From: Bacillota bacterium | Lineage (GTDB): Bacteria; Eremiobacterota; SpSt-956; JAKJGF01 | Length of the DNA: 8,856 nt | Assembly (NCBI GenBank): GCA_029555925.1 | Contig: JAKPQU010000502.1 | Location: 1-8,856, forward strand | Direction of reading: 5' to 3' | In this document: positions 1 through 8,856 of the stretch, piece after piece | Layout: every line of letters starts with the position of its first letter | Numbering within the stretch: the first letter of the stretch is position 1 | The notes under the pieces: generated by a model | The model's input: only the letters and a program-made list of their open reading frames with translations | Told to the model about the DNA's origin: nothing | Databases searched by the model: none | Program-made: the position numbers and the translations under genes

Positions 1-30
1 TATTTCATAACTTATTAGAATTTAAGTCGT

Positions 31-101
31 CGTGACGCGTAACGCGTGACGCGTGACGGGTTTAATCCCTGCGCATCACGCATTACGCTTTACGCATTAC
101 G
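31..101. repeat. Palindrome made of two opposed 7-bp repeat arrays
   Basis: Four heptamers of the form CGTGACG or CGTAACG (31-58) are followed by GGG-TTTAAT-CCC (58-69) and then by four heptamers of the form GCATTAC, GCATCAC or GCTTTAC (73-100). The second set is a degenerate reverse complement of the first, so the whole is a large imperfect inverted repeat with a perfect 3-bp tip. It lies beyond the 3' end of the minus-strand GTPase gene. The same heptamer recurs at 2520-2550. Such CG-rich heptamer arrays in AT-rich spacers look like dispersed intergenic repeats; their function is unknown. No T-run follows on either strand, so this is not a standard intrinsic terminator. Confidence 0.8.
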
Positions 102-117
102 AGGTCATTATTTATGG

Positions 118-137
118 ATAGTTATGAAACTAACTAT
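118..137. repeat. Short AT-rich inverted repeat
   Basis: A perfect 7-bp inverted repeat, ATAGTTA and TAACTAT, flanks a 6-nt loop (tgaaac). It lies 27 bp past the stop codon of the minus-strand GTPase gene. It is AT-rich and no U-tract follows in the direction of that gene, so it would be at best a weak terminator or RNA 3'-end stabiliser. Confidence 0.35.
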
Positions 138-163
138 AAATTTAAACAAAACATCTTACACTC

Positions 164-1072
164 TCAAATTTTTTTATTAAAGATTCTATGAAACATTTCG
201 TCTGCAATTTTAAAAGGATCGTAATTCTTCAGAGACATTTCATCAATCATCTTATCATTTAAATATTTATGAAGACATTCATCTTTAACATGTTTCATTA
301 TAAGCCATTCCAGCGTATTTCTCAGATTTTCTCTTTTATGTTCAACTTTAAAACTCTTTAATTCTTCAAAAAGCCTGTCATATGTTTCAGGCAAATTCAC
401 ACCTGTTTCAAAAATTTTAACCTTTTTATGGCCTATTGCACCCATAAGAGCTGCTTTTACGGAATAAGAATCAAGGATATCACATTTGGTAACGGCTATT
501 ATATCTGCAATTTCCATTATACCGGCTTTCATAAGCTGTATTTCATCACCTGCCTGAGGCTGAACCGCCATTACTACAAAATCGGAGACAGATGAAATTT
601 CCGTCTGAGTCTGCCCAAGGCCGGCAGTTTCAATAAAGATAATATCTGCTCCCCATAGTTCCAGTATGCGGGAAATTACCATTACTTCAGGCGTTACGGA
701 TTCTGTTCTGGAAGGGACTGAACGTATGAAAACACCTTCATCTGTATAATGATGTTTCATTCTTATCCTGTCACCGAGTATGGCCCCGCCGCTGAAAGGA
801 CTTTCAGGATCAAATGCCACGACACCGACTCTGCAATTATTTTTTCTGGCACTTTTTATGAGACCGTCAATAAGAGTGGATTTTCCGACACCGAATGAGC
901 CGGCAATACCTGCATATTTTATGTTGCCTGTTAAAGGATAGATATACGACGAAACTTCTCTTAAAAATCCTGCAGAATCTTCACATTCACTTATGAGCCT
1001 GGCCGTAGCTCTTCTGTCACCTGATCTGATTTTCTCTATTATTTCATGAATATTTTTTATATTAATCTTCAT
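164..1072 (-). CDS. meaB: MeaB/ArgK-family P-loop GTPase (methylmalonyl-CoA mutase chaperone type)
   Basis: This 302-residue protein belongs to the G3E/SIMIBI GTPases. MeaB proteins load and protect the adenosylcobalamin cofactor of acyl-CoA mutases in the cytoplasm. Visible motifs are the Walker A loop GSFGVGKST (58-66), the family signature DPESPFSGGAILGDRIRM (88-105), the switch segment ETAGLGQTQTE (148-158), the GDEIQLMKAGIMEIAD stretch (175-190) and a specificity motif TKCD (195-198) in place of the usual NKxD. The glycine-rich RG-GG stretch normally found after the conserved 'FIRS' is absent: here it reads SVPSRTESVTPEV (118-130). The protein is slightly shorter than the usual 310-340 residues. 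No mutase gene is in the window, so its client is unknown. The start is the only upstream ATG before an AT-rich spacer and lacks a clear Shine-Dalgarno. A TATAAT on the minus strand (1082-1087) lies about 10 bp before the ATG, which would give an almost leaderless transcript. Family assignment is firm; the client is not. Confidence 0.88.
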   Translation of the reverse strand: MKINIKNIHEIIEKIRSGDRRATARLISECEDSAGFLREVSSYIYPLTGNIKYAGIAGSFGVGKSTLIDGLIKSARKNNCRVGVVAFDPESPFSGGAILGDRIRMKHHYTDEGVFIRSVPSRTESVTPEVMVISRILELWGADIIFIETAGLGQTQTEISSVSDFVVMAVQPQAGDEIQLMKAGIMEIADIIAVTKCDILDSYSVKAALMGAIGHKKVKIFETGVNLPETYDRLFEELKSFKVEHKRENLRNTLEWLIMKHVKDECLHKYLNDKMIDEMSLKNYDPFKIADEMFHRIFNKKI

Positions 1073-1140
1073 AGTTGAATAATTATATCATAATTTCATG
1101 TTTCATATTATATATAATTTATTTTATCCTCTCTTGTTTT

Positions 1141-1168
1141 TTGACATATATATAAGGTAATATATATC
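1141..1168 (+). promoter_or_regulatory. Candidate sigma-70 promoter for the glycosyltransferase gene
   Basis: A perfect TTGACA (1141-1146) is followed after 16 bp by TATATC (1163-1168, four of six matches to TATAAT). It points toward the plus-strand glycosyltransferase and sits 47 bp before its ATG. The spacer is very AT-rich, so weaker alternative -10 hexamers overlap it. Confidence 0.42.
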
Positions 1169-1173
1169 TGTAT

Positions 1174-1208
1174 GTGAATAGAAAGAACATTACCGTCGAA
1201 CAATTCAC
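1174..1208 (+). promoter_or_regulatory. Leader inverted repeat just before the glycosyltransferase start
   Basis: GTGAAT (1174-1179) and ATTCAC (1203-1208) are perfect 6-bp complements flanking 23 nt, and the second arm ends 6 nt before the ATG at 1215. The leader has no recognisable Shine-Dalgarno, so initiation may depend on structure or on another mechanism. A stem of this size can arise by chance. Confidence 0.25.
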
Positions 1209-1214
1209 CGGGCC

Positions 1215-2456
1215 ATGATTATGAGAATCCTTCATACCCTGAGCCAGAAGCCGGAAGCTACAGGCAGCGGCATAACAATAAGAGAAATTATAGCACAATC
1301 CCATAAGAAGGGACATGAAAATTTTCTGTTTGCCGGTATTTCCGGAGGAGAAACCTGCAGATTTCCATGTTACCTTGAAGAAAATCATATTTTTGTTGAA
1401 TTTAACAGTGAAAATCTTCCCTATGATGTGGCGGGGATGAGTGATGTCATGCCCTATAAAAGCACAAGATTTTCAGATCTTTCGGAAGAAGATATAATTA
1501 AATATGAAGAAGCTTTTCTGGAAAAACTCATCATTTCCGTGGAAAGATTTAAACCTGACATAATACATGGCCACCATCTGTGGATTTTAACAGGACTCAT
1601 GAAAAGAACCTTTCCGGAAATACCACTGATTGCTCACTGTCATGGAACTGATCTCAGGCAAATTCAACTCTGTCCTCAACACAGACACAGAGTTATATCA
1701 GGCTGTTCAAAAGTAGATGGTGTGCTGGTCCTTTCCGGAGCCCAGAAAGAACAGGTCGTAAAAACATACGGACTTTCACCGGAAATTGCTTTTCTTACAG
1801 GCACAGGTTATAATGAACAAATTTTTCATAATGACCGGAAAGAAAAAAAAGGCAGAATAGAAATTCTTTACGCAGGAAAACTCAGCAGGGCAAAAGGTGT
1901 TTACTGGCTTCTTGAAGCCTTACATAAAATCAGTCACTTCAAGTGGCATCTACATATGGCAGGAAGCGGTTCAGGCCCGGAAAAGGATGAAATTTTAAAA
2001 AAATCTGAAGAGATGAAGGATAAAGTGACATGGCACGGCCAGATAAACCAGAAAGAGCTGGCAGAACTGATGAGGTTATGTCATATATTCGTTCTTCCTT
2101 CCTTCTATGAAGGTTTTCCTCTTGTTCTTATTGAAGCCCTTGCATCTGGATGCAGAATCGTAGTAACAGAACTTCCTGCAGTGACAGAAATGAAAAGTGA
2201 AAAATCTATGCCCTTTATAAGCACTGTCCCTCTCCCCCGCCTTAACGGCCCTGACAGGCCGGTAGAAGAAGATGTGCCTTTATTCGTAGAAAATTTAAAA
2301 AAATCACTGGAAGAACAACTATATCTTTCAGAGGAAAAATTACGTGATGAAGAAATTACGCCTTTGCTGAAATATTATACGTGGACCGAGGTTTTTAAGA
2401 GAATCGAACAGGTTTATGAAGCCCTTATCGTGAATAAAAGAAACAAATTTTTATAA
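1215..2456 (+). CDS. GT4-type (GT-B fold) glycosyltransferase
   Basis: This 413-residue protein is a group 1 glycosyltransferase of the GT-B fold, predicted to transfer a sugar from a nucleotide-sugar donor to an unknown acceptor at the cytoplasmic membrane face. The N-terminal Rossmann half opens with MRILHTLS (3-10) and carries an IIHGHHLW strand-loop (117-124) and an HGTDLR motif (143-148) typical of GT4 enzymes. The donor-binding half has GKLSRAKG (221-228), where the basic residues usually contact the diphosphate. It also has the E-x7-E retaining motif, E299 to E307 in EGFPLVLIE, followed by ALASGCRIVVTELPAVTEM. Length is normal. ATG at 1215 or 1221 (residue 3) could be the start; neither has a clear ribosome binding site. 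No in-frame ATG, GTG or TTG lies between the stop at 1179 and 1215. The gene stands alone and there is no polysaccharide cluster in view, so the acceptor cannot be inferred. Confidence 0.9.
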   Translation: MIMRILHTLSQKPEATGSGITIREIIAQSHKKGHENFLFAGISGGETCRFPCYLEENHIFVEFNSENLPYDVAGMSDVMPYKSTRFSDLSEEDIIKYEEAFLEKLIISVERFKPDIIHGHHLWILTGLMKRTFPEIPLIAHCHGTDLRQIQLCPQHRHRVISGCSKVDGVLVLSGAQKEQVVKTYGLSPEIAFLTGTGYNEQIFHNDRKEKKGRIEILYAGKLSRAKGVYWLLEALHKISHFKWHLHMAGSGSGPEKDEILKKSEEMKDKVTWHGQINQKELAELMRLCHIFVLPSFYEGFPLVLIEALASGCRIVVTELPAVTEMKSEKSMPFISTVPLPRLNGPDRPVEEDVPLFVENLKKSLEEQLYLSEEKLRDEEITPLLKYYTWTEVFKRIEQVYEALIVNKRNKFL

Positions 2457-2485
2457 AAAAACTATATAGATATTTTTCAAATCCC

Positions 2486-2494
2486 TGTTATAAT
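2486..2494 (+). promoter_or_regulatory. Candidate extended -10 promoter for the fusion-gene cluster
   Basis: TGTTATAAT matches the extended -10 consensus TGnTATAAT exactly. No good -35 hexamer is visible 16-18 bp upstream, which extended -10 promoters tolerate. Transcription from about position 2500 would give a leader of roughly 165 nt containing the heptamer array (2520-2550) and the two-hairpin element (2560-2640). A second TATAAT at 2511-2516 is an alternative. Confidence 0.42.
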
Positions 2495-2519
2495 ATATAG
2501 ATAAATTACATATAATCCT

Positions 2520-2550
2520 CGCGTCACGCGTCACGCGTCACGCGTCACGA
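2520..2550. repeat. 7-bp tandem repeat array (CGCGTCA x4)
   Basis: Four exact copies of CGCGTCA (2520-2547) are followed by a partial CGA. The reverse complement is the same heptamer as in the first arm of the 31-101 palindrome, here in opposite orientation and without the opposed second arm. Each junction creates the palindrome ACGCGT. It lies past the 3' end of the glycosyltransferase gene, as the first array lies past the 3' end of the GTPase gene, so both are in analogous positions. Confidence 0.85.
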
Positions 2551-2559
2551 TTTTTATAA

Positions 2560-2640
2560 TAACAGACATGACCGGAGCGGGTCACAACCAGATATGAGAA
2601 TCGACATCCAGTGAAATCGGAAACTGGATCATTCTCATAT
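2560..2640 (+). repeat. Two-hairpin ~80-nt dispersed element, copy 1
   Basis: The 42-nt block at 2560-2601 matches the reverse complement of the block in 8644-8684 with two substitutions and one 1-nt indel. It contains a small hairpin, TGACC (2569-2573) with GGTCA (2580-2584), then GTCACAACCA, then ATATGAGAAT (2592-2601). That last decamer pairs perfectly with ATTCTCATAT (2631-2640). The 29-nt loop holds a further perfect stem, ATCCAGT (2606-2612) with ACTGGAT (2623-2629), giving a long interrupted hairpin. The element ends 11 nt before the Shine-Dalgarno of the downstream gene, so on the plus strand it lies in that gene's 5' leader. No known riboswitch or ribozyme core was recognised. Confidence 0.85.
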
Positions 2641-2651
2641 AAATTCCTTTT

Positions 2652-2671
2652 GAGAGGAGACCAGGACATTG
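2652..2671 (+). promoter_or_regulatory. Shine-Dalgarno fixing a TTG start
   Basis: GAGAGGAGA (2652-2660) precedes TTG at 2669-2671 with about 9 nt between GGAG and the start. An in-frame TGA at 2651-2653 rules out any start further upstream. The first in-frame ATG is residue 23 and has no comparable ribosome binding site, so TTG is the best start. Confidence 0.75.
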
Positions 2672-5600
2672 TTCAGAGATAAAGATGAAACAGGTGACAG
2701 GTTTGATTTCCTGCCAGGTTCTTCGGAATTTTCCATGCTGGAAGGAGAAAGAATTTTTTATAATTATGTAAAAGAACTCTATGAAACTCATGGAAAAAGA
2801 ATAGAAAAATACAGAGATCAACTTATAGAAATGGGTAAAAATCTTTCCATTCCGCCTGACAGTCAGAGAGAGATTGAATTATATATAAGAGAAGAATATT
2901 TTTCCTATATAGAAGATGTTCCGGAAGAAATAAAACCGGAAAAGAAACGGGGAAAAAAGCTCCTTCAGGAAAAAACAAAAAAAGAACCTATCAGGGAAGA
3001 ATTACTTGATCTGTCATTACTTGAAGAGAAAAATAAACTCATGTCCATAAAAAACGAACTGGAAGAAAAAGAAAAAGATCTTCAGGAAGTGAAGAAAAAA
3101 CTGGAACAGGAACAAAGAGAACTGGAAAGCTATAAAGATAAAACCTATAAAGAACTTGGTAAAGAAAGAATAAATATAAGAAAAGAAAAAATGGAACTGA
3201 GCCGGCACAGAGAAGAATTGCAAAGCTACCTTGAAAGCCATAAAGCTCAGGAAGAAAACATAGAAACCTTCATAAAACTTCAGCAAACCATAGAAGAACT
3301 CAGGGAAGAAAAAAACCGGCTGGAAAAAGAAAAAGAAGAAGTTTCTGCTACAGGCAGAGAAACCAGAGCAATGGCAAAACCTGACGAGAAAACACTTGAA
3401 CTGTTACAGACAATAAAAAAACTTCAGGAAGATAATGAAAGACTTCAAAAAGAAAAAGAGGAATATACAGAAAAAATTCTCTTTTCCGGACAGGCCAGAC
3501 CGGGCCATGATGAAGAAATAAAAAAACTTCAAAAAGCCATTGAAAAACTCAGAGGGGAAAAGAAATCCCTCCAGGATAAAAAGGAAGAACTGGAAAAACT
3601 CCTGGAAGGACAGAAAAAAACAGACGATACAGACATGGAATGCATAAAAAAAGCTATGGAAGAATTTAATGAGAAAAAAGCAAGTTATGAGAAGGAAGTG
3701 AAAGAAAAAGAAAAACTGCTGAAGGAAAAATACGAGAAAATAACTGAAGAGGCAAAGAGAAAACTGCTGGAACTGGAAGAAGAAAAAGAAAATTTTGAAG
3801 AGTTAAAAGAAAAGCATATAAAAAAATTCCATGATGAAGAAAAAAAGCTGAAAGAAAAATATGATAAATTACTATATGAACTGAACAAAGAAAGAAAGGC
3901 TGTAGAAAAAGTCAAACAGGATTTTACACAATTGCAGGAAAGAATGAAAAAAGAACTGGAAGAGCAGAAAGGATATCTTGAAAAAAAAGGGGTAACTCTG
4001 GAACTGGAAAAAGAAAGTCTGGAAGGAGAAAAATGGGAAATTGAAAAATTCCTGAAAGAAGAAAAAAAGACACTGGAATGGAGACTCCATTTACTCACAC
4101 AGGAGAGAAAAATCTTTGAAAAAGAAAAAAAAGAAATGATGGAACAGCTTGCAGAACAGGAGAAAGAATTCGAAATAAAATTCCTGGAACTTTCCGATGA
4201 AAAAGCAAGGCTGGAAATGGAAAAAGAAGAATTTCAGAAAAATGTAAATCAGGAACGAATGTCTATAAAGAGAGCCCTCTGGGAAGCAGAAGAAAAACTG
4301 GCTGCTATAGAAATTCAGAAAGAGGCAATAGAAAGTATAAAGGAAGAACCGGAAAAAAAGAAGGAACTGGAACATCTAGAACTGGAACTTAGGAAAGCAA
4401 AAAGAGAACTGAAAATAGAAGAAGAAGAACTGTTAAATAAAAAAAGAGAATATGAAACTGCAATGAAATTTGTAGGTAAACTGAGAGAAAAACTCGTAGA
4501 TATAAAAGATGATTTCATACAGTCAACAGGTCTGGACCCCGTTGAAAGAGACTGGCAGATTCTGGAAACAATCATAGATAGTGCGGCAGAAGAACAGAAA
4601 AAAGAAATGCCCTCGGAACCTGATACAAAGAAGATTGTAAGTAAAATAATCAGTAAAAAGACGTTGCCCTTAAAATATGACATATATCCTTCTCCACCGA
4701 TGGATCTGAATATTAAAGCCATAACCTACTGGCCTCTCTTTCAGGGCAATCTGAAAAGAGACGGCCATTCGGCATCGGAATATGAGCTGATGCCGCCTCT
4801 TGAGAAGATATGGGACTTTAAAACTAAAGGTGCTGTAATAAACAGTCCTGCTATATACAGTGAAGCAGTTTATGCATCTTCCGAAGAAAAGCTTTATGCA
4901 GTAAAATTCCACACAGGTAAAGAAATATGGTCTATCGATATGGCTGTAAATTCCACTCCATGTATAAATGACCATGCCCTCTTTATCGGTTCTCTCGATA
5001 CTAAATTTTATTCTCTCGACAGACTGACAGGTAAACAGTTATGGAAATATAAGACTCACGGAGAAATTCAATCATCACCTCTCATAGAAGAAGGACTGGT
5101 ATATTTCGGTTCCGAAGACGGCATTTTATATGCTCTTGATGAAATTAAAGGCCATAAGTTATGGGATTTTTCAACAAACGGACAGATAAAAACAGCTCCT
5201 GCCCTCTATAAGGGAATAATCTATATAACCTCAACAGATAACTGTTTATACGGCCTGAATGCTTCCACAGGAGGTGAAATATGGAAATACAATCTGGGGA
5301 CAGAAGGAGATATGCCTGTCATATATAAAGAACAGCTTATAATCACCGATCATATGAGCAGACTTCACTTCTTCAACAGCAGAACAGGTGAAAAACTCCG
5401 TGATATACAGTTAATAGGAAATATCTGCGGCATGGCAATTCTGGAAGATACTATATATATAACATCAAAAGAAGGTGTTATATTTGCCCTGAACGGATTG
5501 TCAGGTGAAGAAACATGGAAGCAGAACTTTAATGTATCTTTCACCGGCGCTCCTGTAATAGCCAATGGCGTAATATACGCAGGAACGGCAGAAGGTGAAC

Positions 5601-5770
5601 TCTATTCCATAGTAATGAAAGAAAAGAAAAAATTCCTGAAGAAAAGGCCCGGCATAAAGCACTACTCCATCAATTTAGGAGGAAAAATCATGGCACCTCC
5701 TGCAATAGCTTCCGGCCTGATTATTACAGGGGGCAGAAATCTGTACGGACTGAAAACGGCAGGGAGGTAA
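2669..5770 (+). CDS. Coiled-coil / PQQ-type (BamB-like) beta-propeller fusion protein, no export signal
   Basis: This 1033-residue protein has three parts. Residues 1-90 form a small, probably helical domain (YVKELYETHGKRIEKYRDQL and IPPDSQREIELYIREEY) that I do not recognise. Residues about 110-620 are almost continuous Glu/Lys-rich heptad sequence, an SMC/myosin-like long coiled coil interrupted near residues 220-240 and 270-285. After a linker, WPLFQGNLKRDG (688-699) opens a PQQ_2/BamB-type propeller that runs to the C-terminus. It has seven to eight repeats of about 40 residues, each shaped like SPxIxxGxVYxGSxDGxLYALDxxTGKxLWxY; clear cores are GKEIW, GKQLW, GHKLW and GGEIW. Such propellers are mostly periplasmic scaffolds, yet there is no signal peptide or membrane segment, so a cytoplasmic location is inferred. 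The tryptophan docking motifs suggest a structural propeller rather than a PQQ enzyme. The stop overlaps the next gene's ribosome binding site. Function unknown; a scaffold role is plausible. Confidence 0.88.
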   Translation: MFRDKDETGDRFDFLPGSSEFSMLEGERIFYNYVKELYETHGKRIEKYRDQLIEMGKNLSIPPDSQREIELYIREEYFSYIEDVPEEIKPEKKRGKKLLQEKTKKEPIREELLDLSLLEEKNKLMSIKNELEEKEKDLQEVKKKLEQEQRELESYKDKTYKELGKERINIRKEKMELSRHREELQSYLESHKAQEENIETFIKLQQTIEELREEKNRLEKEKEEVSATGRETRAMAKPDEKTLELLQTIKKLQEDNERLQKEKEEYTEKILFSGQARPGHDEEIKKLQKAIEKLRGEKKSLQDKKEELEKLLEGQKKTDDTDMECIKKAMEEFNEKKASYEKEVKEKEKLLKEKYEKITEEAKRKLLELEEEKENFEELKEKHIKKFHDEEKKLKEKYDKLLYELNKERKAVEKVKQDFTQLQERMKKELEEQKGYLEKKGVTLELEKESLEGEKWEIEKFLKEEKKTLEWRLHLLTQERKIFEKEKKEMMEQLAEQEKEFEIKFLELSDEKARLEMEKEEFQKNVNQERMSIKRALWEAEEKLAAIEIQKEAIESIKEEPEKKKELEHLELELRKAKRELKIEEEELLNKKREYETAMKFVGKLREKLVDIKDDFIQSTGLDPVERDWQILETIIDSAAEEQKKEMPSEPDTKKIVSKIISKKTLPLKYDIYPSPPMDLNIKAITYWPLFQGNLKRDGHSASEYELMPPLEKIWDFKTKGAVINSPAIYSEAVYASSEEKLYAVKFHTGKEIWSIDMAVNSTPCINDHALFIGSLDTKFYSLDRLTGKQLWKYKTHGEIQSSPLIEEGLVYFGSEDGILYALDEIKGHKLWDFSTNGQIKTAPALYKGIIYITSTDNCLYGLNASTGGEIWKYNLGTEGDMPVIYKEQLIITDHMSRLHFFNSRTGEKLRDIQLIGNICGMAILEDTIYITSKEGVIFALNGLSGEETWKQNFNVSFTGAPVIANGVIYAGTAEGELYSIVMKEKKKFLKKRPGIKHYSINLGGKIMAPPAIASGLIITGGRNLYGLKTAGR

Positions 5771-5777
5771 AGAAATG
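5762..5777 (+). promoter_or_regulatory. Ribosome binding site embedded in the end of the fusion gene
   Basis: GGGAGG (5762-5767) lies within the last two sense codons of the fusion gene, whose TAA is 5768-5770. The next ATG is at 5775, 7 nt downstream. This arrangement implies co-transcription and probable translational coupling of the two genes. Confidence 0.75.
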
Positions 5778-6692
5778 AAACATCCTCTGTTTATTAGCAC
5801 CGTTGCTCTTGGCATAATGGCTTCCATTAACTCATATATATTTGCCGGAACCAGGACAGGCAGACATGCTCTGGAAGGAGAAGACAGAATTTACCGGTGG
5901 AGATATGGCAATATTTTTTATAAAGTCAGAGGAGAAGGAAAAAAAATACTGCTTTTACATAATATACATCAGGGAGCTTCTTCCTTTGAATGGAATAACA
6001 ATTTCTCTCTGCTGGCCGAAAAATTCAGAGTATACGCTCCTGACCTGCCGGGATTCGGTCAGTCGGAAAAATTAAAAAGAGGATACAGAGCAAAACTCTA
6101 TGTAAAATCGATCTTTGATTTCATAGACAGTATAATAGAAGATGAATGTTCCGTAATAGCAAGCGGACTGAGTTCTATATATGCCATAAGAAACAGCTCT
6201 CTTTACCCGAAAAAAATAAAATCCCTCTTTCTTATAGATCCTCCTGTGCTGGAAAGAGGAAAAAAATCTGAGATAATAGAATTAATGACCTATCAGTTCG
6301 TAAGCAGTCCTGTCATAGGAAGAACCATATATAATCTTATGACATCAAAATTATTTATAAGGAATTTCCTGAAAACAGAGGTTTACAGTAAACCTGTAAC
6401 AGGAGATATGGTAAATTATTATCATATGGCAGGACATCAGAAAGGAAGCGACCTGTTTTATCCTTCATTCATATGCGGTTTATTAAATATGAATGTATCT
6501 GAGGAATTCAAACACTTAACTCAGGAAATAACAGTATTATTCGGAAAAGAAACAGATTACTACGACAGAATGAAAACATTAAAAAAATTAAATCCGGCAG
6601 TAAGAATAAAAATATTTGAACACTGTAAAATATTACCTCATGGAGAAAATGCCGAAGGATTTAATAGATTTATTGAAGAAAAACTTTTATAA
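5775..6692 (+). CDS. Alpha/beta-hydrolase-fold protein, membrane-anchored or exported, catalytic triad apparently degraded
   Basis: The 305-residue protein has a hydrophobic N-terminus (5-24) suggesting a signal peptide or membrane anchor. An alpha/beta-hydrolase domain follows: RWRYGNIFYKVRGEGKKILLLH, GASSFEW (67-73), the strand VYAPDLPGFGQSEK (86-99), the elbow region VIASGLSSIYAI (127-138) and YPKKIKSLFLIDPP (144-157). Active enzymes of this type carry HG, G-x-S-x-G and a late GH. Here the oxyanion HG reads HN (62-63). The elbow reads A-S-G-L-S, placing Gly131 where the nucleophile Ser is expected. The terminal segment reads CKILPHGE (284-291), placing Ile286 where GH-type proteins have His, although His289 is nearby. 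Asp261 (GKETD) could be the acid. I infer a pseudoenzyme or a shifted active site; Ser130 or Ser133 with His289 remains possible. It begins 4 bp after the fusion gene and ends 3 bp before the protease gene. Confidence 0.82.
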   Translation: MKHPLFISTVALGIMASINSYIFAGTRTGRHALEGEDRIYRWRYGNIFYKVRGEGKKILLLHNIHQGASSFEWNNNFSLLAEKFRVYAPDLPGFGQSEKLKRGYRAKLYVKSIFDFIDSIIEDECSVIASGLSSIYAIRNSSLYPKKIKSLFLIDPPVLERGKKSEIIELMTYQFVSSPVIGRTIYNLMTSKLFIRNFLKTEVYSKPVTGDMVNYYHMAGHQKGSDLFYPSFICGLLNMNVSEEFKHLTQEITVLFGKETDYYDRMKTLKKLNPAVRIKIFEHCKILPHGENAEGFNRFIEEKLL

Positions 6693-6695
6693 TTA

Positions 6696-7619
6696 ATGAA
6701 TATTATGACAATCATATTGAAAGAACATAAAAGACAGATTATTATAATAGGTATAGCCGTTATATTTCTATTGTTGAGCTTTTTTAAATATATACCGGAG
6801 AGTGTTGATAAATACTGGATGGGCTTAAAGTTATATCAATATATTATGATTGTCTGTTTAATATTAAATGTAATATCCGTTCTGGGCCCACTGAAATCAT
6901 TAAAACATTCTCTATCTCTTATGCTTGCCTGGTCGATTGCCTATTCAATGGTAGAGATAATATTTGTTAATACGTTTTATCTTATACCTGTATATACGGA
7001 AGCATTCCAGGATAACTTTAAAACCTTCTTTATACAGACCTGTTATCAATTTATCGGGATTATTATATTGCTGTCTTTTTTCTATAATAATAAAGCTGCA
7101 TGGAGTAAGAGTTTTTTAAGAGCAGGTAATATGAAAGCAGGAACTACGGCACTCGGCTATAAAGAACCTATGCCCTGGTATATGGTTGTAACAAGGTTCT
7201 CTGTTGCGGTTATTATAATATTTCTCATATTGCTCACAGTTCAGAATTTATGGCCTGCCTACAGCAATGAAAAATTTATAAATTATTTACCTGTATTACT
7301 GGGTACGGTAACAAATTGTCTGGTAGAAGAAATATTAAACAGAGGAATATTTCTGGGAGTATTTCTTCAGGAAATGAGCGGAGGAAAAGCAAACCTGCTG
7401 CAGGCCATAATATTCGGACTGCTGCACTGGCCTTCTTATACCCTGTTACATTATCTGATGAAAATAGTACTTTTTACATTTCTCGGATGGTTCTTCGGAA
7501 GAGCAACTATGGAAACAAAGGGGATTATGCCGTCAACAATCATGCATTCAGTCCTCATAGCATGCCTGTATGCTTCTTTGTTTATCTTTCAAATTACAGG
7601 TTTTAACTATTTTAAATAA
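6696..7619 (+). CDS. CPBP-family (CAAX-like) intramembrane metalloprotease
   Basis: A 307-residue, very hydrophobic polytopic membrane protein with about eight predicted membrane segments, including 14-30, 48-64, 76-97, 112-130, 165-183 and the helices around the motifs. The C-terminal half carries the three hallmarks of the CPBP/Abi (Rce1-like) family. These are EEILNR (211-216, the EExxxR motif), FGLLH (240-244, FxxxH) and H284 in STIMHSV, near the position of the third conserved His/Asn. The catalytic Glu and the ligand His residues are therefore present. Family members cleave prenylated or other membrane peptides, process bacteriocins or have unknown substrates, and nothing here selects among these. 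The start lies 3 bp after the hydrolase-fold stop. ATG at 6705 (residue 4) is an alternative start, and neither has a strong ribosome binding site, consistent with translational coupling. Confidence 0.88.
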   Translation: MNIMTIILKEHKRQIIIIGIAVIFLLLSFFKYIPESVDKYWMGLKLYQYIMIVCLILNVISVLGPLKSLKHSLSLMLAWSIAYSMVEIIFVNTFYLIPVYTEAFQDNFKTFFIQTCYQFIGIIILLSFFYNNKAAWSKSFLRAGNMKAGTTALGYKEPMPWYMVVTRFSVAVIIIFLILLTVQNLWPAYSNEKFINYLPVLLGTVTNCLVEEILNRGIFLGVFLQEMSGGKANLLQAIIFGLLHWPSYTLLHYLMKIVLFTFLGWFFGRATMETKGIMPSTIMHSVLIACLYASLFIFQITGFNYFK

Positions 7620-7687
7620 GGAAAGATTTTTTTCACCGGAATGGAAAAAAACCGGGAACACGGGGTTTTAACTATTTTAAATAAGGA
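7599..7687. repeat. 24-bp direct repeat flanking a 41-bp insert with its own inverted repeat
   Basis: Positions 7599-7622 and 7664-7687 are identical over 24 bp, or 28 bp with one mismatch. The first copy encodes the last six residues of the protease (GFNYFK), its TAA and a GGA. The second repeats all of this and supplies the real ribosome binding site of the hydratase gene. The intervening 41 bp contain a perfect inverted repeat, TTTTTTTC with GAAAAAAA around accggaatg (about 7627-7651). It could be a small insertion with a long target duplication or a segmental duplication. In RNA the T7/A7 stem would be a weak hairpin, not a standard terminator. Confidence 0.85.
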
Positions 7688-7699
7688 GAGAATTATATG
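7683..7699 (+). promoter_or_regulatory. Ribosome binding site of the hydratase gene, within the second repeat copy
   Basis: AAGGAGAG (7683-7690) precedes the ATG at 7697 by about 7 nt and is the strongest Shine-Dalgarno in the window. It lies at the end of the 24-bp direct repeat. The equivalent site in the first copy reads AAGGAAAG and is followed by a T-run rather than a start codon. Confidence 0.75.
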
Positions 7700-8473
7700 A
7701 GTAAAGATTTAAAACATATAGAATTTACCGTAGAAAAGGATGTGGCAAAAATCACCCTTAACAGGCCGCCTCTGAATGTAATGAATATAGAAATGCTCAA
7801 TGAACTGGGGACGACATTAAAATCAATACAGGATATGGCAGATATAAAACTTCTGGTAATAAATGCAGCAGGTAAAGCCTTTTCTGCAGGTCTGGATATA
7901 AAGGATCATTCGCCGGATAAAATAGAAAAACTCATATCTGTATTTAACAGGGTATTTTACCTGTTAAACAGTTTTAAGATTCCTACTATGTCCATAGTTC
8001 AGGGAGAAGGTGCTTTTGGAGGAGGATGCGAACTGGCTACATTCTGTGACATAGTAATTGCTACGGAAGAGGCAAAATTTGTTCAGCCCGAGTTAAAGGT
8101 AGGTGTAATTCCTCCAATAGCAGTGATTACGTATCAAAAAAAGATAGGCAAACATGGAGCATATGAAATGCTGCTTACAGGGAAAGAGCATAAAGCCACA
8201 CAGGCAGCCAGAATAGGTCTCATAAGCAAAGCTGTAACAGATGATAAACTGGAAGCAGAAGTAAGCAGAATAATAAAACGTATTACTTCAAACAGCGGCA
8301 TAATACTGAAGATGACCAAACAGGCTATGATAAAAACTGCCGATATGAATTTTGACGATGCAATTAAAGAAGTGGAAAAAATTTATTTAAAATCTTTAAT
8401 AAAAACGCAGGATGCAAGAGAAGGACTTAATGCGTTTCTGGAAAAAAGAAAACCTGTGTGGAAAAATAAATAA
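7697..8473 (+). CDS. Enoyl-CoA hydratase/isomerase (crotonase), cyclohexa-1,5-dienecarbonyl-CoA hydratase-like
   Basis: This 258-residue cytoplasmic crotonase is predicted to hydrate an unsaturated acyl-CoA. The N-terminal signature LNRPPLNVMNIEML (21-34) is followed by the first oxyanion-hole segment KAFSAGLDIKDH (60-71) and the second, GAFGGGCELATFCDIVIA (105-122). Both glutamates corresponding to the classic catalytic pair are present: Glu112 in GGCELA and Glu132 in QPELKVG. The combination SAGLDIKDHSPDKIEKL with QPELKVGVIPPIA is what I recall of cyclohexa-1,5-dienecarbonyl-CoA hydratases (Dch/BamR group, anaerobic aromatic degradation), which also have about the same length. Related sequences may serve other substrates, and no other gene of that pathway is in view, so the specific name is tentative. 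The gene has a strong ribosome binding site and lies 77 bp after the protease, so it may share the upstream transcript. A MeaB-type GTPase in the same window is another hint of CoA-thioester metabolism. Confidence 0.9.
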   Translation: MSKDLKHIEFTVEKDVAKITLNRPPLNVMNIEMLNELGTTLKSIQDMADIKLLVINAAGKAFSAGLDIKDHSPDKIEKLISVFNRVFYLLNSFKIPTMSIVQGEGAFGGGCELATFCDIVIATEEAKFVQPELKVGVIPPIAVITYQKKIGKHGAYEMLLTGKEHKATQAARIGLISKAVTDDKLEAEVSRIIKRITSNSGIILKMTKQAMIKTADMNFDDAIKEVEKIYLKSLIKTQDAREGLNAFLEKRKPVWKNK

Positions 8474-8604
8474 AAGAAAATGTTGGAGAATGAGAAAGGA
8501 GAAGGAATCAACAGGTACTGCTAAAAAGAAAACAGGTAAAGAAAATTTTAAAAAGTACAATAAAATAATAACATTCAGGCATAAAACTGAACGAAATTAT
8601 ATTT
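8474..8604. other. Spacer after the hydratase gene, no recognised gene
   Basis: The sequence is A-rich. It contains only a lysine-rich frame starting at ATG 8490 that runs into the dispersed element, with GGAG just 2 nt before the ATG, too close for normal initiation. No terminator hairpin with a T-run is visible directly after the hydratase stop. Confidence 0.6.
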
Positions 8605-8684
8605 ATATGAGAATAATAGAAGCTTATTCTTCACTGTTTACTAATTCTCATATTTGGTTGTGACCCCTCCGGTCATGCCTGTTA
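8605..8684 (-). repeat. Two-hairpin ~80-nt dispersed element, copy 2 (inverted relative to copy 1)
   Basis: Read on the minus strand, this copy starts with the same block as copy 1 (TAACAGGCATGACCGGAG, then GGGTCACAACCA). It ends with ATATGAGAAT, a 29-nt loop and ATTCTCATAT. On the plus strand the stem arms are 8605-8614 and 8644-8653, a perfect 10-bp pair. The loop (8615-8643) has the same length as in copy 1 but mostly different sequence; CAGTGAA is shared at the same loop position. The TGACC/GGTCA mini-hairpin is kept. This copy lies in the spacer about 130 bp after the hydratase stop and precedes no minus-strand gene, so it is not a leader here. Confidence 0.85.
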
Positions 8685-8724
8685 GTGCGAAATAAAATTC
8701 TAAAAAATACTCTTCAGTAAACAA

Positions 8725-8802
8725 CCACCGACCCTGTCGGTGGCTTTGGGGGACAAGACAACACCTCCTGACAATGTCATTCGTCGTTGTCTTTCCAAAG
8801 CC
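8725..8802 (-). other. Structured segment with three stems; candidate minus-strand terminator or small RNA/mobile-element end
   Basis: Three perfect inverted repeats are packed together. CCACCGAC (8725-8732) pairs with GTCGGTGG (8736-8743) around a 3-nt loop. GGCTTTGG (8742-8749) pairs with CCAAAGCC (8795-8802). Inside that, AAGACAAC (8755-8762) pairs with GTTGTCTT (8786-8793), and the apical loop contains the palindrome TGACAATGTCA (8769-8779). The first stem shares two bases with the second, so they would form alternatives or stack. On the minus strand the GC-rich 3-nt-loop hairpin is followed by TTGTTT and, after a weak TACT-GAAG-AGTA stem, by six T, which resembles intrinsic termination. 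On the plus strand only CTTT follows. Local GC content looks higher than in the rest of the window. Confidence 0.6.
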
Positions 8803-8856
8803 TCAATTGCTCTCCTCTAATCTCATTCTCTTGTTGAATACGTACATATCTTTTGA

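Follow-up and report, generated by a model that had tools for sequence, protein, structure and literature searches.

Location and structure of the element

The DNA analyzed here is contig JAKPQU010000502.1 of assembly GCA_029555925.1 (positions 1 to 8,856, forward strand), deposited under the name Bacillota bacterium and assigned to the Eremiobacterota in GTDB; this whole 8,856-nucleotide stretch is referred to below as the window. It contains two copies of a short element that is predicted to form two hairpins. Copy 1 (85 nt; bp 2560-2644, plus strand) is intergenic, with all flanking genes on the plus strand. A glycosyltransferase gene ends 103 nt before it (bp 2456) and the TTG start codon of a gene encoding a 1033-aa protein (bp 2669) follows 24 nt after it, with a GGAG sequence in between. 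The genes that come next encode an alpha/beta hydrolase, a relative of CAAX-type proteases and an enoyl-CoA hydratase. Copy 2 (84 nt; bp 8601-8684, minus strand, reading from 8684 to 8601) lies between convergent genes, 127 nt past the end of the plus-strand hydratase gene (bp 8473) and in the opposite orientation to it. It is located 92 nt from the stop codon (bp 8779-8777) of an IS200 transposase gene on the minus strand, the same strand as copy 2. Within the window, copy 2 does not precede any gene on its strand, where only the antisense of the hydratase gene follows. Both copies are intergenic and are found downstream of a gene.

Each copy is made up of a small hairpin followed by a large one. 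In hairpin 1, TGACC pairs with GGTCA around a loop of 6 nt in copy 1 (bp 2569-2584, plus strand) and 5 nt in copy 2 (bp 8661-8675, minus strand). Hairpin 2 has a 10-bp stem, perfect in both copies, formed by a 5' arm (ATATGAGAAT) and a 3' arm (ATTCTCATAT). These arms are at bp 2592-2601 and 2631-2640 on the plus strand in copy 1 and, in element sense, at bp 8644-8653 and 8605-8614 on the minus strand in copy 2. They enclose a loop of 29 nt in each case (bp 2602-2630, plus strand, and bp 8615-8643, minus strand), inside which both copies have a CAGTGAA box (bp 2609-2615, plus strand, and bp 8630-8636, minus strand). The 42-nt block at the 5' side is identical between the copies at 39/42 positions, with 2 substitutions and 1 indel, and the 3' arm together with the AAAT that follows it is identical at 14/14 positions. 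A preliminary description, made from the DNA letters without database searches, had reported the two copies, the 42-nt block with these differences, the TGACC/GGTCA mini-hairpin and the perfect stem. All of these were found as reported, and as the AAAT 3' of the stem is also common to both copies, the element is slightly longer than first described.

The resemblance between the copies is not a chance similarity. BLASTN comparison of 200 bases around copy 1 with 356 bases around copy 2 gave an E-value of 9e-15 (68/87 bases identical). A 22-base core, GGTCACAACCARATATGAGAAT, occurs twice in the window with no mismatches; 0.00 occurrences were expected, and the core was found in none of 200 dinucleotide-shuffled windows with up to 3 mismatches allowed. 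The two copies have the same ends in opposite orientation, their similarity stops sharply at these boundaries, and the sequences flanking them cannot be aligned.

Conservation of the frame and the loop

Outside the loop of hairpin 2 (here called the frame), 53/56 positions are identical between the copies, compared with 12/29 positions within the loop (Fisher's exact test, p = 1.1e-7); when the frame is restricted to the columns that begin at hairpin 1 and finish with the large stem, the comparison is 41/43 with 12/29 (p = 4.1e-7), and both p values are somewhat flattering as the frame was delimited by its likeness. With conservation significantly higher in the frame than in the loop, uniform drift after duplication can be rejected for this pair, as the preliminary description had argued.

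That description had further proposed a "length-fixed variable cassette", based on two loops of exactly 29 nt that were mostly different in sequence. The lengths are as given, and the difference in sequence holds for 22 of the positions, but not for the CAGTGAA box, which occupies loop positions 8-14 in both copies and supplies 7 of the 12 loop identities. When one loop was shuffled 200,000 times, an in-register run of at least 7 identical bases arose in 0.17% of cases (a test picked after the box was noticed), and the total loop identity of 12/29 was matched or exceeded in 4.9%. The 5 matches among the 22 loop positions outside the box are at chance level. As judged from these two sequences, the loop is a conserved box within otherwise unrelated or saturated sequence. 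Equal loop length is no evidence for a cassette at n = 2, because descent without indels keeps length; with the box shared in register as well, the cassette was not supported.

Folding and transcription signals

When the element strand was folded as RNA with short flanks, copy 1 reached -26.2 kcal/mol (z -3.9) and copy 2 reached -20.4 kcal/mol (z -3.0), with 0/200 shuffles as good in either case. The z-scores for the opposite strand were -2.2 for copy 1 and -2.7 for copy 2, and 4/200 shuffles were as good for each. The pairing of the CAGTGAA box differs between the copies: in copy 1 it is partly within the 7-bp inner stem into which the loop folds on its own (z -2.4), while the fold of the copy 2 loop is not significant (z -0.4). 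No inner fold common to both loops was found. Neither stem varies between the copies, which leaves no covariation by which RNA structure could be told from DNA structure or from double-stranded sites.

A search of Rfam (4227 families, E ≤ 10) gave no match to the copy 2 region. The sole match to the copy 1 region was a CRISPR repeat in the loop, which at 13.3 bits is below the gathering score of 38 and was read as chance. The absence of any credible Rfam match to the element agrees with the preliminary description, in which it was not recognized as a known riboswitch or ribozyme. Copy 2 has no called terminator-like site, and copy 1 has a single one, at hairpin 1 on the opposite strand. Promoter-like matches numbered 27 in the whole window compared with a shuffle mean of 27.8, and two of the 27 overlap the copies.

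Search for further copies

An exact pattern of the 22 fixed bases was found once in a genome-contig collection, in an alphaproteobacterial metagenome-assembled genome. This match lies inside an open reading frame, lacks the large stem and was read as chance, so that this pattern yielded no third copy; such an absence is weak evidence because an exact pattern misses relatives with one change in 22 bases. In IMG/VR, two exact scans for the element pattern gave 0 matches each, a relaxed hairpin 1 pattern gave 5 loci (none with the large stem), and the large stem with any loop of 20-40 nt gave 3 loci (none with the frame). Two mutually homologous IMG/VR contigs, L003 (bp 9761-9807) and L004 (bp 3501-3547), carry the arms ATATGAGAAT/ATTCTCATAT around a 27-nt loop near the starts of different genes; with the frame seen in the window absent, these arm pairs are probably a separate control site.

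BLASTN searches with copy 1 gave no match among plasmids (E ≤ 1) and one 22-base match among phages (E = 3). With copy 2 and its neighbourhood, three plasmid records (24 bases, E = 0.06) and two phage records (31 and 26 bases, E = 0.9) were returned, and these were read as chance. A covariance model built from the two copies and applied to the window and 11 loci (E ≤ 10) produced 14 matches, with the two copies scoring 107-109 bits. The other matches, such as L005 (22.3 bits, E = 0.011, no frame), L004 (19.0 bits), L001 (18.7 bits) and weaker ones, were read as noise or as places that the patterns had selected. The same model found the element in 0/60 genomes of the phylum of the alphaproteobacterial match, a result that says little as this group has no reason to carry the element and the search had no positive control. 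A protein-database search for open reading frames passing through other copies gave no candidate, which carries no weight because most of the query was masked. In the portions of the literature covered by our search, no such repeats were reported for Candidatus Eremiobacterota.

The neighbouring IS200-type element

The transposase gene near copy 2 is represented in the window by its last 25 codons and stop codon (bp 8777-8854, minus strand). The encoded residues are identical to the C-terminal 25 residues of P0121, a 147-aa protein recorded as 'IS200/IS605 family transposase [Candidatus Eremiobacterota bacterium]', which was the sole match to the 41 residues scored, 24 of them before the stop (100% identity over 59%, E = 8.7e-5). 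P0121 matches the Pfam Y1 transposase family (141.9 bits, cut-off 23) and the NCBIfam model transpos_IS200 (158.6 bits, cut-off 55), and scores 23.8 against REP_Tyr_transpos (cut-off 80). It matches 8 sequences in PDB, including the ISHp608 transposase, as well as 2701 plasmid and 94 phage records, all at less than 60% identity. The 25-aa tail alone had no match in Pfam, NCBIfam, plasmids or PDB.

The right end of this insertion sequence (IS) was placed by comparison with IMG/VR contig IMGVR_UViG_3300005264_001257 (L011), which has a 71%-identical transposase and a similar right-end hairpin. L011 aligns with the minus strand of the window from bp 8823 to bp 8716, through the hairpin CCACCGACAGGGTCGGTGG, and the similarity ends there, giving a right-end region of bp 8716-8776 (minus strand); the left end of the IS falls beyond the window. 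A pattern scan of IMG/VR for this right end recovered the same contig only, and the covariance model found no copy of the element in its 6.4 kb. Because the similarity to L011 stops at bp 8716, before copy 2 (from bp 8684), copy 2 appears, with one relative as guide, to be a neighbour of the IS about 31 nt outside its right end and not the right end itself. PMC1525189 describes insertion sequences that settle in palindromic repeats, so the adjacency of the IS and copy 2 may reflect either a target preference or coincidence.

Other features of the window

The 1033-aa protein (bp 2669-5770, plus strand, TTG start) has, by eye, a long Glu/Lys-rich coiled-coil-like region, as well as a C-terminal PQQ-type beta-propeller; against plasmids it gave only partial matches (143 records, less than 60% identity). 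Among 120 of the 2863 relatives of the glycosyltransferase, the best organism-named one (51% identity) is from Candidatus Eremiobacterota, and of 4 stretches returned from IMG/VR as containing relatives, 0 were confirmed. Taken with the name under which P0121 is recorded, this makes two names by which the window would probably belong to that phylum. Arrays of a GTGACGC/GCGTCAC-like heptamer are present at bp 25-115 and bp 2519-2550. Bases 30-58 are 97% complementary to bases 2522-2550, and the second array ends approximately 10 nt before copy 1. The first array (bp 25-115) folds into a hairpin that is long but imperfectly paired (z -4.8). An Rfam search of the whole window (E ≤ 1) placed mir-592 at bp 20-112, with 26.4 bits compared with a gathering score of 67, and this was read as chance. 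There is also a 31-nt direct duplication (bp 7599-7629 and 7664-7694; 94% identical, 65 nt start-to-start) at the end of the CAAX-protease-like gene, with its second copy just 5' of the hydratase gene.

Comparison with known repeats

The core site of integron attC sites is GTTRRRY. This motif is absent from both strands of both copies, as are the repetitive extragenic palindrome (REP) tags GTAG and CGTC and their complements CTAC and GACG; the preliminary description had likewise not recognized the element as an attC site or a REP. The absence of the tags is also a point against assigning the element to the REP-type repeats, with which it otherwise shares several features. As described in PMC3733652, REPs of the GTAG and CGTC superfamilies predominate in co-directional and convergent intergenic positions and prefer the 3' end of the upstream gene. 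The element is likewise small and palindromic, with one copy in an intergenic position of each of these two kinds, but it is 85 nt in length compared with 20-40 bp for a REP, has no tag on either strand, and in copy 1 lacks the proximity to the upstream gene's 3' end.

The resemblance to REPINs (REP doublets forming hairpins) is closer. According to the parts of PMC3116915 that deal with their structure, REPINs have conserved inverted ends and a less conserved, hairpin-forming spacer, of which the length and the capacity to form a hairpin appear critical. The element similarly has short conserved inverted arms and a less conserved spacer, is intergenic and contains no gene, although only the copy 1 loop folds significantly alone. 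Unlike a REPIN, it lacks the GTAG tag, has hairpin 1 on its 5' side only and is known from two copies. The neighbouring transposase, to judge from P0121, is of the IS200 type and not a REP-associated tyrosine transposase, although a gene for one may lie elsewhere in the genome. With no tag, a neighbouring transposase of another type and only two known copies, the element does not qualify as a REP or REPIN on the features tested, but its architecture is REPIN-like.

Origin and possible function

On balance, if only just, we take the element to be an ordinary hairpin repeat, interspersed between genes, non-autonomous and probably belonging to the chromosome of a Candidatus Eremiobacterota bacterium. 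This interpretation is favoured because the same ends are found in flanks that do not align, because both copies are intergenic, and because a conserved frame contrasts with a loose loop. The element has no room for a gene. Its two hairpins, the small TGACC/GGTCA one and the large one with a 10-bp stem and a 29-nt loop, could form in single-stranded DNA or, where the element is transcribed, in RNA. Copies may have spread by means of a protein supplied in trans that recognizes the folded frame. A HUH/Y1-type enzyme is our guess, and this enzyme class is present, since an IS with a Y1 transposase ends about 31 nt from copy 2. Drift of the loop would be tolerated if what is read there is mainly its length and the CAGTGAA box; an influence on nearby transcripts, if there is one, would be a secondary consequence.

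Several observations weigh against this interpretation. Only two copies are known, both from 8.9 kb, neither carries a GTAG or CGTC tag, and the comparison with one relative puts copy 2 outside the right end of the adjacent IS. The 3' side lacks a counterpart of hairpin 1, making the element asymmetric, unlike described REPINs. Copy 1 is nearer to the start of the next gene (24 nt) than to the previous stop codon (103 nt), a position that suits a regulatory leader. Neither is there a convincing target-site duplication or a common target word: with boundaries drawn from two copies, copy 1 is preceded by ATAA and copy 2 by GCAC. The 6-bp word ATTTCG is repeated directly on the two sides of copy 2, at a distance of 3 nt, as would suit a target duplication, while the flanks of copy 1 share only TTTT. 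In this AT-rich window, such flanks have a 6-mer in common at 13.3% of 8732 positions (4.3% with offsets within 1 nt), and a target duplication at copy 2 is no more than possible.

The main rival explanation, which we consider unlikely yet deserving of serious attention, is that the element is a structured RNA (a small RNA or leader) in which selection keeps the two hairpins and CAGTGAA while the other loop bases are free or locus-specific. It would account for the element-sense strand folding better than shuffles and more clearly than its complement, and for the location of copy 1 shortly before the GGAG and TTG start of the 1033-aa gene; copy 2 has the transposase gene upstream of it on its own strand and could sit in a 3' untranslated region of that gene. 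A leader is made less likely by the fact that copy 2 heads no gene in the window, whereas a free small RNA or such an untranslated region would be compatible with it. The lack of an Rfam match at E ≤ 10 other than the sub-threshold CRISPR repeat, the identical stems that leave no covariation to score, the loops without a common inner fold, and a lone terminator-like site that is on the wrong strand of one copy all speak against an RNA. A double-stranded DNA site could also be conserved in place of a fold, with ATATGAGAAT and its inverse forming a pair of protein-binding half-sites around a spacer. Half-sites conserve while spacers drift, and the arms are perfectly conserved; in the two homologous IMG/VR contigs, near different gene starts, identical arms flank a spacer of 27 nt, which may be coincidence. 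We regard half-sites as a poor prospect, however, as the remaining frame (hairpin 1 and GGTCACAACCA) is conserved too, those IMG/VR cases are without the frame, and promoter-like matches in the window do not exceed the shuffle mean, although two overlap the copies.

The remaining alternatives involve mobile DNA of other kinds. Known members of the IS200/IS605 family have hairpins near their ends (PMC6006769), and one such element adjoins copy 2, ending about 31 nt away. The element could be a short relic or miniature derivative of this family, without terminal inverted repeats and resembling the palindrome-associated transposable elements (PATEs) of Haloquadratum, which, in the portions of PMC3119063 describing them, have near-terminal palindromes like IS605-type ends and no target duplications. 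Like a PATE, it has palindromes near both termini, is too short for a gene and has no established target duplication. In contrast, the right-end hairpin of the neighbouring IS, the sole IS200-type right end compared and placed from one 71%-identical relative, is the different CCACCGACAGGGTCGGTGG and stops before copy 2; the relative's contig lacks the element; the element's two hairpins are unlike each other; and the words before the copies (ATAA and GCAC) do not form a common target. A PATE-like relic is therefore improbable in our view, if a little less so than half-sites. Alternatively, the copies could be the terminal inverted repeats of a single 6.1-kb mobile unit (bp 2560-8684), as they are inverted around an apparent operon with TAACAG outermost at both sides. 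Such a unit is very hard to credit: the four main genes inside it include no transposase or recombinase in Pfam (E ≤ 0.001), the longest word common to the outer 20-nt flanks is ATAA, which is at the left junction but 7 nt off the right one, and the diverged 29-nt loops would not be expected of one unit's terminal repeats. Scarcely more credible is a new Candidatus Eremiobacterota family of mobile or functional hairpins with a strict frame and CAGTGAA box, in which an exchangeable 29-nt loop would be meaningful for each locus (for example, as a guide or in pairing) and which a Y1/HUH enzyme would move or process.

On present evidence, the element is one more interspersed repeat, and it looks like a small, passive one such as many bacterial genomes contain. 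If this is confirmed, a little-studied phylum would gain a small hairpin repeat whose frame differs from those of the GTAG and CGTC types, and the enzyme responsible for its movement would become a matter of interest. The parts worth testing are marked out by the sharp difference in conservation between frame and loop and by the one box conserved inside the loop.

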